DNA of 64,000 nt from Caldilineaceae bacterium (GTDB taxonomy: Bacteria; Chloroflexota; Anaerolineae; Caldilineales; Caldilineaceae). The position numbers and the translations under genes are program-made. Each line of letters opens with the position of its first letter. The stretch's first letter is position 1. Shown piece by piece: positions 38,779 through 44,098 of the stretch. Under the pieces are notes generated by a model, which did no database searches, was not told the DNA's origin, and saw only the letters and a program-made list of their open reading frames with translations. The stretch is taken from positions 124,001 through 188,000 of the forward strand of contig JADLDO010000028.1 of assembly GCA_020846635.1 (NCBI GenBank). The letters run 5' to 3'.

Positions 38779-39243
38779 ATGCCACAACTTCAAGTTGGTG
38801 ATCTGGCTCCAGATTTTTCAGCAGTGACAGATGAAGGCAAGACGGTCAAACTTAGCGACTATCGCGGCCAGCGCGTGGTTCTCTACTTTTATCCGGCAGA
38901 CGACACGCCGGGCTGCACCACCCAAGCATGCAGCTTTCGCGATAATTATGTAGATATTCAAGAACAGAACGCGGTTGTTTTGGGCATCAGCCCCGACAAC
39001 CAAAGCTCTCACCAAAAATTCAAGACCAAATACAATCTGCCCTTCACGCTTCTGGTGGATGAAGACCACGCCATCACCGATCTCTATGGCGCTTGGGGTG
39101 AAAAGACCAACTTTGGTAAAACGTACATGGGCGTCATTCGCAGCCACATAGTCATTGACGAAAATGGCAAGGTCATCGACACCCGTTACAATGTCAAGGC
39201 CGACGCCAGTATGCCCCAAGCGTTGGAGGCACTAAAAGCCTAG
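38779..39243 (+). CDS. bcp: Thioredoxin-dependent peroxiredoxin, Bcp/PrxQ type
   Basis: A 154-residue peroxidase: LQVGDLAPDFSAVTDEGKTVKLSDYRGQRVVLYFYPADDTPGCTTQACSFRD. The peroxidatic Cys is in PGCTTQ and the resolving Cys five residues later (QAC), as in the E. coli Bcp type. LGISPDNQSSHQKF and TLLVDEDHAITDLYGAWGEK complete the fold. It reduces H2O2 and alkyl or fatty-acid hydroperoxides using thioredoxin. It is monocistronic, ended by the hairpin at 39270. Confidence 0.95.
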   Translation: MPQLQVGDLAPDFSAVTDEGKTVKLSDYRGQRVVLYFYPADDTPGCTTQACSFRDNYVDIQEQNAVVLGISPDNQSSHQKFKTKYNLPFTLLVDEDHAITDLYGAWGEKTNFGKTYMGVIRSHIVIDENGKVIDTRYNVKADASMPQALEALKA

Positions 39244-39269
39244 CCTGGGCTCCCTTACCTGAGACACCA

Positions 39270-39303
39270 ACCCTCCTGGAAGCTTCCGAGCTTCCGGGAG
39301 GGT
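39270..39303. repeat. Dispersed hairpin repeat, copy 4 (terminator of bcp)
   Basis: ACCCTCCTGGAAGCT-TCCG-AGCTTCCGGGAGGGT: a 15-bp stem with a single G-U pair, the cleanest copy of the family, 26 nt after the bcp stop. Confidence 0.7.
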
Positions 39304-39608
39304 ATTCTCAGTTCACCTCATCCTTCATCCCACATCCTTCATCCCTCCCTGTGGAAGCCAAAGTCCCAACGACCCTGTCACGGTATGGTATACTCACCAA
39401 CGCCATGGCGGAACTGTGATCGCGTAAACGGGTCTTGATCGTGGCGCAGGGAACAGGCCACCAGCCGATACCGTCTATCTAGGTTGAGGTTGGGGTTGTT
39501 CAGTTGGCCCGGCTGGATAGCGGCAACTTGCGGCAGCCCGTTTGTATCTATGAGGCATGTAATGCGCTCTTATAGATCAGTGCATCTTGAATGATAAATG
39601 AGGAACCT
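39304..39608 (+). promoter_or_regulatory. Long leader region of arsA-like gene with extended -10
   Basis: An extended -10 TGG-TATACT (39386-39394) lies about 210 nt before the arsA start. The leader holds a CGCCATGGCG palindrome (39401-39410) and a hairpin close to the start (ATCTAT GAG GCAT / ATGC CTC ATAGAT, 39546-39577). No known riboswitch class was recognised and no ORF is credible here. Confidence 0.35.
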
Positions 39609-40880
39609 ATGCGTATTCTTCTCTATACTGGGAAAGGCGGCGTGGGCAAAACCAGCACCAGTGCTGCTACGGCGCTCCGCTGCGCCGAATTGGGCTATCG
39701 AACGGCAGTTGTCAGCACTGACCCCGCCCACAGTTTGGGCGACAGCTTTGACCGGCCCATTGGCAAAGATATGACCGAGCTTGCGCCCAACCTCTGGGGC
39801 CAAGAGATCGATCTGCTCAACCAAATGGACAAATATTGGGGCAAGGTGCAGAGCTATCTCAACACGATCTTTGCGTGGCGCGGCATGGACAGTTTGGTGG
39901 CGGAAGAGGCCTCGGTCCTGCCGGGGATGGAAGAGTTGGCCTGTTTGATGCAGATTACCCACCTGGCGGACAGCGGTCTTTATGATGTGATTGTCATCGA
40001 CGCCGCGCCCACCGGTTCGACGCTGCAACTCCTCAGCTTTCCCGATATGGCGCGCTGGTATCTTGAGAAAATCTTTCCCTTCCAACGCAAAACCATGCAG
40101 ATTGCCCGCCCACTCATGCGGCGTATGACGGACATACCCATGCCCGAAGACGATCTCTTTGAATCGATTGAGGAGTTGGTGGGCTATCTGGCGCGCATGA
40201 ATGAGTTATTGAGCGACCCCACGATCAGCAGCATGCGCCTGGTGCTCAACCCGGAGAAGATGGTGATCAAGGAGGCGCAGCGTGCCTACACCTACCTCAA
40301 TCTCTATGGCTATGCCGTCGATGCCGTGATCTGCAACCGTGTCTTTCCCAAAGAGTTGGTGGACAGCTATTTTGACATCTGGAAGAATGCACAAAGCGAG
40401 AATCTCGAACTGATCCGCGAAGCCTTCCACCCACTGCCCATCTTTGAAGTGCCTTTCTTTCCTCAAGAAGTCACGGGGACGGAGATGCTCTTGCGTATGG
40501 CGCAGACCATTTTCGGCTCTGTGGGGGAGCGCGGGGGGGAAGGGGATCCAACCAACCATTATTACACCGGCAAGCCCCAAGAGATCTTCCGCCAAAATGA
40601 ACACTATGTCTTAAGCATCCCGCTGCCTTTGGTGGAGCGTGATCATGTGAATCTGCACCGCAGCGTCTTTGACGAATTGATCGTGCGCATTGGCAATTGG
40701 AAACGCAACATCTCGCTGCCAATGGGGCTTGCTAAACTGGAGATCGACGGTGCCAAATATGTGGATGATCGTCTCAACATCTTCTTTAACGCAGAAGGAG
40801 AGGACGCCAATGTCACACCCGATGCACTCAAGGCCAACGCGTGGCAAAATCTCATGACGCGCATCGGCGGCAAATCCTAG
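39609..40880 (+). CDS. ArsA/Get3-like ATPase with C-terminal HSP20-like domain
   Basis: A 423-residue protein from ATG 39609, with GAGGAA 5 nt upstream; the ORF-track start is six codons earlier. Deviant Walker A TGKGGVGKTSTSAA, switch I STDPAHSLGDSFD and IDAAPTGSTLQLL identify the ArsA/Get3 SIMIBI family. The last 90 residues (HYVLSIPLPLVERDHVNLHRS ... LVVRIGNW-like, DDRLNIFFNAEGE) match the HSP20-like domain known at the end of bacterial ArsA homologues. No arsB, arsR or arsD lies nearby. A role in targeting or chaperoning tail-anchored or membrane proteins is therefore as likely as arsenite export. Confidence 0.88.
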   Translation: MRILLYTGKGGVGKTSTSAATALRCAELGYRTAVVSTDPAHSLGDSFDRPIGKDMTELAPNLWGQEIDLLNQMDKYWGKVQSYLNTIFAWRGMDSLVAEEASVLPGMEELACLMQITHLADSGLYDVIVIDAAPTGSTLQLLSFPDMARWYLEKIFPFQRKTMQIARPLMRRMTDIPMPEDDLFESIEELVGYLARMNELLSDPTISSMRLVLNPEKMVIKEAQRAYTYLNLYGYAVDAVICNRVFPKELVDSYFDIWKNAQSENLELIREAFHPLPIFEVPFFPQEVTGTEMLLRMAQTIFGSVGERGGEGDPTNHYYTGKPQEIFRQNEHYVLSIPLPLVERDHVNLHRSVFDELIVRIGNWKRNISLPMGLAKLEIDGAKYVDDRLNIFFNAEGEDANVTPDALKANAWQNLMTRIGGKS

Positions 40881-40938: not shown

Positions 40939-41046
40939 TGTCCAGTTGGGTATCTGGACATCTACCCCCTTCTATACCCCGGCATGTCTGCGGTCGTATC
41001 TTCTCTTATCCGCTCATCGTATAGCTAGTGACGCAAGTAATAAGGC

Positions 41047-41643
41047 ATGACCCAGATTCAACGTGGTGATCCTGTTGAAGAGACCATTTTGGTCAATCTG
41101 CTGCAACGAGCGCAGGATGCTTGTGATCCAGCGGCATTTGATGGGTTGTACCTACTCTTTGCCGACCGGGTCTTTCGCTATCTACTGGCGCGCATCGGCG
41201 ACCCAGATTTAGCCGAAGACATTACGGCTCAAGTTTTCCTGCGTCTAATCGAAAAGGTCGGTATTTTCCGAATTGGCCCGCGCGATAACGTGGCAATCTT
41301 CTCGGCATGGCTCTATCGCCTGGCGCATAACAAGATGGTGGATGTGCTACGGAGTCACAAACGAACGAAAGAATCGCCTCTGGAACACGCCGCGCATGTG
41401 GTCAGCGGACATACGATGGAGGTCGTTGAGGATCAGCTGGATTTTCAGCGGGTCTTGGACACACTGCGGATTCTTAATGATCAGCAGCGTGAAGTGATTG
41501 TACTGCGGTTTGTCGAAGAGTTAAGCATCGCCGAAACCGCCCAGATCATGCAGAAAAGCGAAGGGGCTGTGAAAGCGCTCCAGCACCGAGCACTGGAATC
41601 TCTCCGCCGCCACTTGCAAGATGTAGGGGCACATGGTACCTGA
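41047..41643 (+). CDS. ECF-type RNA polymerase sigma factor
   Basis: A 198-residue sigma factor. Region 2 reads FDGLYLLFADRVFRYLLARIGDPDLAEDITAQVFLRLIE ... AWLYRLAHNKMVDVLRSHKR. Region 4 reads LRILNDQQREVIVLRFVEELSIAETAQIMQKSEGAVKALQHRALESLRRHL. Regions 1 and 3 are absent, so it is group IV (ECF). Its stop overlaps the start of the following membrane protein by 11 nt. That is the arrangement of a sigma factor with its membrane-anchored regulator. Confidence 0.93.
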   Translation: MTQIQRGDPVEETILVNLLQRAQDACDPAAFDGLYLLFADRVFRYLLARIGDPDLAEDITAQVFLRLIEKVGIFRIGPRDNVAIFSAWLYRLAHNKMVDVLRSHKRTKESPLEHAAHVVSGHTMEVVEDQLDFQRVLDTLRILNDQQREVIVLRFVEELSIAETAQIMQKSEGAVKALQHRALESLRRHLQDVGAHGT

Positions 41644-44098
41644 AGAACTTTTGACTCACTGTATCGCCGCAGTTGAAGCAGGCGAAAACCCCACACAAGT
41701 TGCTGCCCGTCATCCTGACTTTGCCGCCGAATTGGAGCCGATTCTCAAGACAGTAGCGGCTCTGCGCGATGCGGATAAACCGAAGATGTCGGGGGTAGGC
41801 TTTGTGGCAGGCCGTCGAGTCGTTGCCGCGGAGGCTGCTTTGCGTGCATCCCAACTTCAATCGGATGCATCTGCGGCGGCGTCCACTATAGAGCTAGAGC
41901 AACCCGCAACGCGCTCCAGCGAACAGGCGGCTTTGCCGCTCTCTGCATTGCCACCCTCAGAGCCCACGCCCGTGGAACCTTCTGTCGCCAGCCGGAGTGA
42001 TCTGCCCGCCGAATTAGGCGCGGCATCGCTGCGCCCCACGCCAGAGCCGGATACCGCGCCCTTCACCTCTATCGCCATACCTGCCTTGCCATCCAGCGGT
42101 ACGCCTGCGCGCCGTCGCGGTCTGTTTTGGCCTGCTATCTATGGCAGCATAGCTGTGGCCGCGGTGGCACTGCTGGTGGTGGTCGTGGCCGCGGCGAATG
42201 GGGGGAGCCTTCCCGGCGACCCGCTCTACACGCTCAAACGCTCCGCGGAGTCCTTCCAGCGGGTGATCCTCAGCACGACAGGCGATGAAGCGGAATGGTA
42301 TGCGGATCAGGTGGTTCGCCGTTTTGGTGAGGCAATCGCGCTCGAAGCTGAAGGGGCAGCCGTTGACTCGTCCCTGATGGCGGAGATTGTGCAGAATACC
42401 AACGCTGCGCTCATGGCGGTTAACGATCTGCCGACGAGTGAGCGCGCCCGCTTTCTTCTGGAATGGCGGCAAGAATTAGCCGATCTGGATGCCCAAACGA
42501 CGGCAGACACCCTGACTACGCAGACATTGGCGCAGACCGAAATGGCAGTGACTATGGCGTTGGATGCTGCGCGCACGCCCCCTACGGTGCTGCCCCTGTC
42601 GTCCACAGCCACGCCCACACCTGCCACGCCGACAGCATCGCCCGCGCCGCTAACATCGACCCCTACGGAAACTGCGACGGAAATCGCAGCAGTGAGCGCA
42701 ACGCCCACCGCGCTGCCCATCCTGACACCCGTAGCTGCCGAAGTAGAAGCCACGACCACCGGCGCTCCGGCTCCTGCCCAGACCGACACAGCGACGCCTG
42801 TGCCGCCTACCGCCACCGAGCCGGAAGCGACAGCGACGCCGACAGCCACCAGCGGGCCGACCCATATACCGACAGCCACATGGACAGCGCAGCCCAGCGC
42901 GACCGTACCGCCTGTCGATACGCCCACACCCGAAGTGACCTGGACTGCGACCGCGGCTCCGACCTTCACCGAGACACCTAGTGTCACGCCGGAGGAACCA
43001 ACCACCGAACCCACGGATGAGCCGACTATCGAGCCCACAGTAGAGCCCACGGCAGAGCCAACTATAGAACCGACGGCTACACCGCTAGAGGAGCCAACGG
43101 TTGAGCCGACTGGTGAACCAACTGATGAGCCAATAGAGGAGATCACGGTAGCCCCCACGGCAGAACCGACGGAAGAAGCAACCGAAGAACCTACGGCTGA
43201 ACCGACTGTTGAAGCTACCACAGAGCCAACCGCGACCGTCACGCCGGAAGCGAGCGTGCAACCGACAGCTACGGTGGAAAGTACAGTAGAAAGTACAGTG
43301 GAGCCTACCGCCGAAGCGACGCCCACCGCGTTTGAAGGAACGCCCGATCCGGCAGAAGAACCGGGTGATGGAGCGGTTGATGAGGGGGACGTGGCTGCAA
43401 CCCCAGAGGATCAAACACCGGAGGAGCAAGCCTCTGAGGAGATCACAGCCACCGTCGAGGCGACATCGACCCAGCGTTTGAATTTACGCCGCGCGACGAT
43501 GACACCGGAAGCCACAGCCGATGAGCCAACTGAAGGATCAGAAAATAATGGATCAGAAGCGACGGATGAGGCTACCAGCATGGGACAAGAGGGAGAATCT
43601 TCTGGGGAGGCGAGTGCGGCTGACACGGAGATTTCCACGGGCGAGCCAATGACGCCTACGCCAGAGGTGGAGACGCCGCCGGGTGTTGAAGGCAGCGATG
43701 GAGAGGCAGACGAGGGGGAAACAGACGCGGCGCAAAATGAAGCCGGTGGCACGCCATCCCCAAGCGAACAACCAGAGGCGACGCCGGTTCCTGCGACGCA
43801 ATCTTCTCGCGCTCAAAATCAGCCGGTCACGCCAACCCATACCCCTGCCCTTACCCACACACCGACGATTACATCAACGGTTACTGTGATGTCTACTTGG
43901 CTTCCATTGAATACACCGACCGCAACGGCAACCGAAACACCGATTCCTCTGCCTACAGTCACGCCGACGCCCGTACCCCTTTTGCCGACCGTGACACCGA
44001 CCCCTTTACCGCTGCCCGATAGCCCAGAGCCGCCCGCCGCGCCACCGGATGCAGACGCGCCCGCGCAAGACGAAACAACCTCACCAGAGCAGCCCTAG
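41633..44098 (+). CDS. Membrane-anchored mucin-like protein with DUF5667-type domain, possible anti-sigma partner
   Basis: An 821-residue protein. A cytoplasmic helical start (LLTHCIAAVEAGENPTQVAARHPDFAAELEPILKTVAAL) and a Pro/Ser/Ala-rich linker precede one transmembrane helix (about 165-185, IYGSIAVAAVALLVVVVAAA). A DUF5667-like helical domain follows (GDPLYTLKRSAESFQRVIL ... LLEWRQELADLDAQ). More than 500 residues of Thr/Pro/Glu low-complexity sequence follow, including a dense EPTxEPT array. The N-terminus resembles cytoplasmic sigma-binding segments. Coupling to the sigma gene supports that, but no ZAS or Asp-box motif is seen. The stalk would project from the cell. Confidence 0.8.
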   Translation: MVPEELLTHCIAAVEAGENPTQVAARHPDFAAELEPILKTVAALRDADKPKMSGVGFVAGRRVVAAEAALRASQLQSDASAAASTIELEQPATRSSEQAALPLSALPPSEPTPVEPSVASRSDLPAELGAASLRPTPEPDTAPFTSIAIPALPSSGTPARRRGLFWPAIYGSIAVAAVALLVVVVAAANGGSLPGDPLYTLKRSAESFQRVILSTTGDEAEWYADQVVRRFGEAIALEAEGAAVDSSLMAEIVQNTNAALMAVNDLPTSERARFLLEWRQELADLDAQTTADTLTTQTLAQTEMAVTMALDAARTPPTVLPLSSTATPTPATPTASPAPLTSTPTETATEIAAVSATPTALPILTPVAAEVEATTTGAPAPAQTDTATPVPPTATEPEATATPTATSGPTHIPTATWTAQPSATVPPVDTPTPEVTWTATAAPTFTETPSVTPEEPTTEPTDEPTIEPTVEPTAEPTIEPTATPLEEPTVEPTGEPTDEPIEEITVAPTAEPTEEATEEPTAEPTVEATTEPTATVTPEASVQPTATVESTVESTVEPTAEATPTAFEGTPDPAEEPGDGAVDEGDVAATPEDQTPEEQASEEITATVEATSTQRLNLRRATMTPEATADEPTEGSENNGSEATDEATSMGQEGESSGEASAADTEISTGEPMTPTPEVETPPGVEGSDGEADEGETDAAQNEAGGTPSPSEQPEATPVPATQSSRAQNQPVTPTHTPALTHTPTITSTVTVMSTWLPLNTPTATATETPIPLPTVTPTPVPLLPTVTPTPLPLPDSPEPPAAPPDADAPAQDETTSPEQP
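42990..43330 (+). repeat. EPT-rich codon repeat inside the mucin-like gene
   Basis: About 110 codons built on (E/A)PT(V/D/I/A)EPT units, for example EPTVEPTAEPTIEPT. Codons vary between units, so it is protein-level repetition rather than recent DNA slippage. Confidence 0.85.

Follow-up and report, generated by a model that had tools for sequence, protein, structure and literature searches.

A BldN-like ECF sigma factor and its predicted RsbN-type membrane anti-sigma factor, a gene pair linked across the Chloroflexota

An overlapping gene pair in the Caldilineaceae window

The 64,000-nucleotide stretch of Caldilineaceae DNA analyzed here (the window; source assembly 6.8 Mb) carries an ECF sigma factor gene that is directly followed by the gene of a one-pass membrane protein, and to judge from the sequences this pair appears to be a distant relative of the Streptomyces sigma-BldN/RsbN pair rather than a new anti-sigma type. 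The pair is real and well conserved, and the initial annotation was right in reading the second gene product as an anti-sigma factor and wrong in calling it a new type. With the two genes linked phylum-wide, the 821-aa protein is very probably the cognate RsbN-type anti-sigma factor of the sigma factor encoded upstream. The following features were assigned:

39591-40880, + strand: ArsA/Get3-type ATPase, upstream neighbour outside the switch (assigned from the sequence by eye)
40995-41022, + strand: predicted autoregulated promoter, CGTATC as -35-like element (40995-41000), N17, CGTAT as -10-like element (41018-41022)
41047-41643, + strand: BldN-like ECF sigma factor gene, 198 aa, with sigma2 at aa 35-107 and sigma4 at aa 134-187 (ORF; Pfam; best PDB match 6dxo_A)
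41633-44098, + strand: predicted membrane anti-sigma factor, 821 aa (ORF, architecture, linkage)
41633-41896, + strand: predicted cytoplasmic anti-sigma domain, aa 1-88, with four predicted helices (4-15, 20-25, 28-46, 54-88)
41897-42130, + strand: disordered cytoplasmic linker, aa 89-166 (pLDDT about 50)
42131-42205, + strand: single transmembrane helix, aa 167-191 (hydropathy 2.64 over 19 residues; helix in the model)
42203-42475, + strand: DUF5667 (PF18915), first outer domain, aa 191-281 (motif SLPGDPLYTLKRSAE; predicted helical bundle)
42536-44095, + strand: T/P/A/E-rich outer tail ("stalk"), aa 302-821 (composition, EPT count, tandem repeats finder)

Both open reading frames were found where the initial annotation had placed them, on the + strand and with an overlap of 11 nt (41633-41643), but they are two adjacent and overlapping genes and not a fusion, as its wording had it. 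The overlap was also thought to couple the pair; it is real here but not conserved, as the two genes are separated by 6 nt in the closest relatives and overlap by 4 nt at many other loci. The start codon of the 821-aa frame is backed by conservation across relatives. A chance adjacency, a wrong gene call or an assembly artefact would find some support in the GC-rich repetitive DNA, which yields spurious long opposite-strand ORFs here. However, the pair, the start codon, the domains and the promoter are all conserved in independent assemblies, and this conservation rules out such an origin, to which we attach practically no probability.

The gene order with the ATPase upstream of the pair is kept in the window and at four other loci (L038, L050, L053 and L054). 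At two of these (L050 and L053) both a BCP-like peroxiredoxin and the ArsA/Get3-type ATPase are present upstream of the sigma gene, as in the window (38779-40880).

The sigma factor is related to BldN

The assignment of the 198-aa protein to the ECF sigma factors was borne out by Pfam, where Sigma70_r2, r4 and r4_2 are all over cut-off. A PDB search returned sigma-BldN (6dxo_A) as the best match with an E-value of 2e-26, eleven orders of magnitude ahead of any other solved sigma factor (runner-up 3.5e-15). The best NCBIfam model, at the top of 113 families, is TIGR02952 for the BldN family, and because the score of 138 bits is below the curated cut-off of 206 bits we name the protein BldN-like and not BldN. 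Within its own genome it is the best match to the BldN of Nonomuraea, narrowly above a second ECF sigma factor on contig C54.

The same genome has a second BldN-like sigma/anti-sigma pair (G000:C54:143.7-145.9 kb; L142:1211-3385). Its anti-sigma factor ends in LysM domains where the window protein has its stalk, and a CGTATT-N16-CGTCAT motif is located near the start of the sigma gene.

Architecture of the membrane protein

The predicted topology agrees with the one-pass protein with cytoplasmic N-terminus that had been proposed initially: there is a single hydrophobic helix at about residues 167-191, and the 15 residues preceding it have a charge of +3/-0, i.e. a positive cytoplasmic flank. 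The N-terminal domain (aa 1-88) was modelled by AlphaFold2 with a mean pLDDT of 92, and the linker behind it is short or missing in most of the aligned relatives. DUF5667 reaches 27.9 bits in the full protein and 31.4 bits in the region alone (cut-off 27); its helices are modelled at pLDDT >90 and the columns P, Y, R and E are invariant in the alignment. The only other Pfam match of the full-length protein is the PT repeat.

The tail comprises 520 residues (T 23%, P 18%, A 14%, E 14%) and contains 16 EPT triplets compared with 2.9 expected after shuffling (shuffle maximum 9), in agreement with the stalk of more than 500 residues rich in EPT of the initial annotation. Tandem repeats finder placed the 12-nt repeats of EPT type mainly at about 43000-43300. 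The term "mucin-like" can refer to the composition only; the serine content is about 6% and the tail is acidic. Opposite the stalk, a 339-aa GVGVAVGS-rich ORF on the - strand (42307-43326) is a shadow of the T/P/E codons and no gene.

Linkage and spread of the pair

DUF5667 was surveyed in 61 genomes, the one of the window and 60 relatives, and was found in 32. At 30 of the 32 DUF5667 loci read, an ECF ORF lies directly upstream, the remaining two being paralogous loci within the genome of the window. A family profile built on the first 85 residues detected the N-terminal domain in 134 of 301 sampled Chloroflexota genomes and in 80 of 179 genera. Among the 30 best-scoring loci, which makes this a statement about strong matches, the ECF gene is immediately upstream in all 30, a single transmembrane helix follows the domain and most have DUF5667. 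The pair is linked across the phylum, so the separation of the two genes in relatives, named at the outset as an argument against the anti-sigma reading, is not what we found.

Distances between sigma factors correlate with those between anti-sigma proteins (r = 0.58, 0 of 5000 permutations), which may only reflect species relatedness. A search with the sigma alignment led to seven named related loci (titles Caldilineaceae, uncultured Litorilinea and Chloroflexi), while the same search with the anti-sigma protein found nothing, and plasmid records searched by tblastn with the anti-sigma domain gave nothing outside Chloroflexota.

These data also bear on the question whether the 821-aa protein could lack an anti-sigma role and instead be a surface protein whose gene is controlled by the sigma factor and simply shares a transcript with the sigma gene. 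Its large outer region resembles surface proteins and the Streptomyces BldN is known to control surface sheath proteins (PMC4125116). On the other hand, conservation sits in the cytoplasmic and membrane-proximal domains and not in the surface part, the linkage to the ECF gene is complete among the strong matches, and relatives weakly match NCBIfam anti-sigma models (NF052375 in 7 of 37 relatives). We regard a mere surface target as very improbable and retain the anti-sigma reading.

BldN and RsbN have been presented as characteristic of actinomycetes with a complex morphology, and among actinobacteria convincing BldN hits were restricted to these (PMC4255298). In the Chloroflexota sample, about 45% of the genomes have a relative of the BldN-RsbN pair in which the domains follow in the same order and the promoter elements are similar.

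Two paralogues in the window's genome have tandem anti-sigma domains followed by a transmembrane helix, DUF5667 and a T/P-rich tail, with no ECF gene nearby. The first has three such domains (G000:C32:29.9-32.3 kb; L134:2924-5281, - strand) and the second has two (G000:C28:932-934.5 kb; L135:6109-8547, - strand). Both look like orphan anti-sigma factors, which might each bind several sigma molecules or deplete the sigma factor of the window by titration. Three anti-sigma domain units, two of them weak, were also seen in another family (L030).

Relationship of the N-terminal domain to RsbN

Pfam has no model that covers the N-terminal domain, which adds an anti-sigma domain that this database lacks, and single-sequence searches of the N-terminus against PDB and Pfam gave nothing useful. 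A profile of 37 Chloroflexota N-terminal domains (A5) ranked 6dxo_D first among 177,635 PDB sequences with an E-value of 0.096, which is not significant alone; the match gains weight because this chain was the one predicted beforehand. The alignment covers the last two helices of the domain, with LLALASGLGDLPKPQLDPEVKVVQRAQLVAAMEAM aligned there. A smaller profile of 21 sequences missed RsbN, which was reached only with the 37-sequence profile. Chain D, which has 91 residues and differs from the sigma chain A, is labelled "BldN" in the deposit; we take it to be RsbN. The chain names of 6dxo seem to be swapped, as chain A is the sigma factor, and PMC7406223 likewise swaps the names BldN and RsbN.

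Stronger similarity was found beyond this domain. The gene after bldN in Nonomuraea encodes a protein of 211 aa in all with a short N-terminus, a transmembrane helix and a DUF5667 over the Pfam cut-off, and in a profile comparison its TM/DUF5667 region matched the Chloroflexota profile with 96.9% probability and an E-value of 1.7e-10. The window protein has the same RsbN-type outer segment, a single transmembrane helix and then DUF5667, where the RsbN side is judged from the Nonomuraea homologue.

It could still be that the N-terminal domain constitutes a separate, undescribed anti-sigma class that is not homologous to RsbN; in Chloroflexota it would have taken the place of the RsbN domain, with DUF5667 and the sigma factor being retained. 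This would be in line with the missing Pfam model and with Foldseek searches of the PDB with a 301-aa and a 91-aa model, in which nothing matched, RsbN included. It would also agree with the restriction of the weak RsbN similarity to the last two helices, with a direct comparison of the Chloroflexota domain and the Nonomuraea N-terminus that failed to match, and with the motif LDxCL..G..xxCLARYP in the first helices, which is missing from short forms such as L013 and L021. Against it stand the top rank of 6dxo_D with the larger profile, the unusually fast divergence known for RsbN proteins (PMC4255298), and the downstream helix, transmembrane helix and DUF5667 that short and long Chloroflexota forms have in common. 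We consider a separate class unlikely and prefer the RsbN-type reading.

Class III anti-sigma factors are described in PMC8103513 and PMC7406223. RsbN, which belongs to this class, is reported to contact sigma4 through helices 1-2 and sigma2 through helix 3 and to inhibit transcription. The pair of the window resembles sigma-BldN/RsbN of Streptomyces (PDB 6dxo) in the adjacent genes and the BldN-like ECF factor, in CGTA-CGT promoter elements at the junction or upstream and, via the Nonomuraea homologue, in the short helical cytoplasmic domain, the single transmembrane helix and DUF5667 outside. It differs by extra N-terminal helices with the LDxCL..CLARYP motif in the Chloroflexota proteins, by the disordered cytoplasmic linker and the long outer tail, which the short Nonomuraea protein lacks, by a promoter that precedes the sigma gene and overlapping genes, and no developmental targets were seen here. 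With class I anti-sigma factors (RseA, ChrR, RskA, zf-HC2) it has a four-helix cytoplasmic domain and an ECF partner in the same operon in common. In contrast to these, the domain of the window had no match to class I Pfam models, nor had those of 23 relatives, and the zinc motif HxxxCxxC is absent from the domain alignments.

Promoter and predicted regulon

The sequence CGTATC-N17-CGTAT ends 24 nt before the start codon of the window sigma gene. In nine aligned and otherwise diverged upstream regions of the family it is the only common element, with fixed spacing and about 25-30 nt before the start, and a tenth orthologue (G006), which was not used for motif discovery, has it at the same place. 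As the promoter precedes the sigma gene in 10 of 10 orthologues, autoregulation is predicted. All nine relatives with a close orthologue have one exact site upstream of the sigma gene, whereas in genomes that lack such an orthologue exact sites occur at background frequency, similar to a reversed control.

Three exact sites are present in the window's own genome compared with none for the reversed control. Besides the sigma gene, one lies inside a gene and one (G000:C28:331257-331284) is located 28-29 nt before the gene of a 730-aa exported protein (L136:3040-5229, - strand) with matches to a beta-propeller and a di-haem cytochrome c peroxidase, which is the best candidate target besides the operon. 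Leaving the sigma genes aside, almost all exact sites in the ten genomes are intragenic and look like chance, and the strict motif therefore gives no support to a wide regulon. The output with the best support would be negative feedback on the operon itself.

A looser CGTA...CGT pattern with one spacing, chosen after the sequences were seen, is present at 13 of 21 other Chloroflexota loci compared with 0.12 in shuffles. It was also found at 7 of 29 further loci (one of which repeats an earlier locus), where about 0.2 are expected. The Nonomuraea bldN-rsbN junction contains CGTAAC-N17-CGTTAA, and for rsbN of S. venezuelae a separate promoter that depends on BldN is reported at this position (PMC4255298). 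This suggests a promoter grammar that is common with BldN. The site also gives searches for the regulon a defined promoter to start from.

We interpret the locus as a BldN-RsbN-like switch in which an ECF sigma factor and its anti-sigma factor are autoregulated. With its helical N-terminal domain, the anti-sigma factor would bind the sigma factor on the cytoplasmic side of the membrane and inhibit it, and one helix would connect this domain with DUF5667 and the long disordered acidic T/P/E-rich tail on the predicted outer side. An envelope or surface signal might be read by DUF5667 and/or the tail and lead to release of the sigma factor, most likely via regulated proteolysis. The freed sigma factor would then transcribe its own operon from CGTATC-N17-CGTAT, resulting in more sigma factor and more inhibitor, together with a few other genes. 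Homologues of the Peptidase M50 site-2 protease are present in the genome, as in nearly every genome.

The outer tail as a possible sensor

Long disordered outer regions have been connected with signal perception in other anti-sigma factors. The disordered outer region of B. subtilis RsgI is reported to sense wall defects, and RsgI (anti-SigI) of Bacillus subtilis and Clostridium has an outline like that of the window protein, i.e. a cytoplasmic anti-sigma domain, one transmembrane helix, an outer domain and a long disordered region, which is trans-wall in RsgI (PMC11175481; PMC12203970). RsgI differs in the sigma family and in the anti-sigma and periplasmic domains, and neither an autocleavage domain nor the RsgI N-terminal domain was found in the full-length protein. 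RsdA (anti-SigD) of Corynebacterium is likewise a one-pass anti-sigma factor whose long disordered outer region has been suggested as sensor (PMC11175481), but this region has about 160 residues and the sigma and anti-sigma families are different. The stalk-sensor idea of the initial annotation is therefore reasonable but has precedent. Its claim of a new type of anti-sigma sensor is not supported, as the protein very probably groups with RsbN, and sensing of wall defects by a disordered anti-sigma region has previously been described for Bacillus RsgI (cited in PMC11175481).

Neither the length nor the composition of the stalk is conserved across relatives. The tail position is occupied by four DUF5666 repeats (L031), LysM domains (C54 pair), Asp/Asn-rich, Gly-rich or short tails at other loci, while the transmembrane helix and DUF5667 are conserved. 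In the family of the window, all eight orthologues with a readable tail have a T/P-rich tail of at least 337 residues after DUF5667; a ninth (L026) with a broken or mis-assembled tail was left out of this comparison. The tail might be a passive surface polymer, be it a spacer, an S-layer or wall anchor or a charge coat, without a role in signalling, and the signal would then be read by DUF5667 or the membrane. The wide variation beside a conserved membrane helix and DUF5667, the easy drift of low-complexity tails and the translation, in which no C-terminal anchor or second transmembrane helix is visible, are all consistent with this, and we regard it as a serious possibility that falls short of an even chance. 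The retention of the long T/P-rich tail in the family speaks against a passive polymer, as do the defined modules (LysM, DUF5666) that other families place there, as one would expect where a sensor sits. An inner switch that stays constant while the outer parts are exchanged is also easier to reconcile with a sensor than with a structural protein. Sensing by the tail itself seems feasible but less likely than not.

Taken further, the pair may belong to a phylum-wide, uncatalogued class III-like anti-sigma family with one conserved cytoplasmic switch and interchangeable outer sensors, and in Caldilineaceae a long disordered T/P/E stalk would serve as a mechanical sensor of the surface or wall state, as RsgI does. 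This reading as a whole is rather unlikely; if it is true, the BldN/RsbN logic of Streptomyces is older and broader than actinobacterial development. The Chloroflexota proteins form a large set of natural variants with a constant inner switch and a changing outer sensor, so that what the outer part senses can be tested by tail swaps. A further variant was observed in one family (f38; L150, L157, L158 and L159) with genomes of 1.8-2.1 Mb, where the anti-sigma domain is encoded beside an ECF gene and the outer domain is devoid of the DUF5667 motif.
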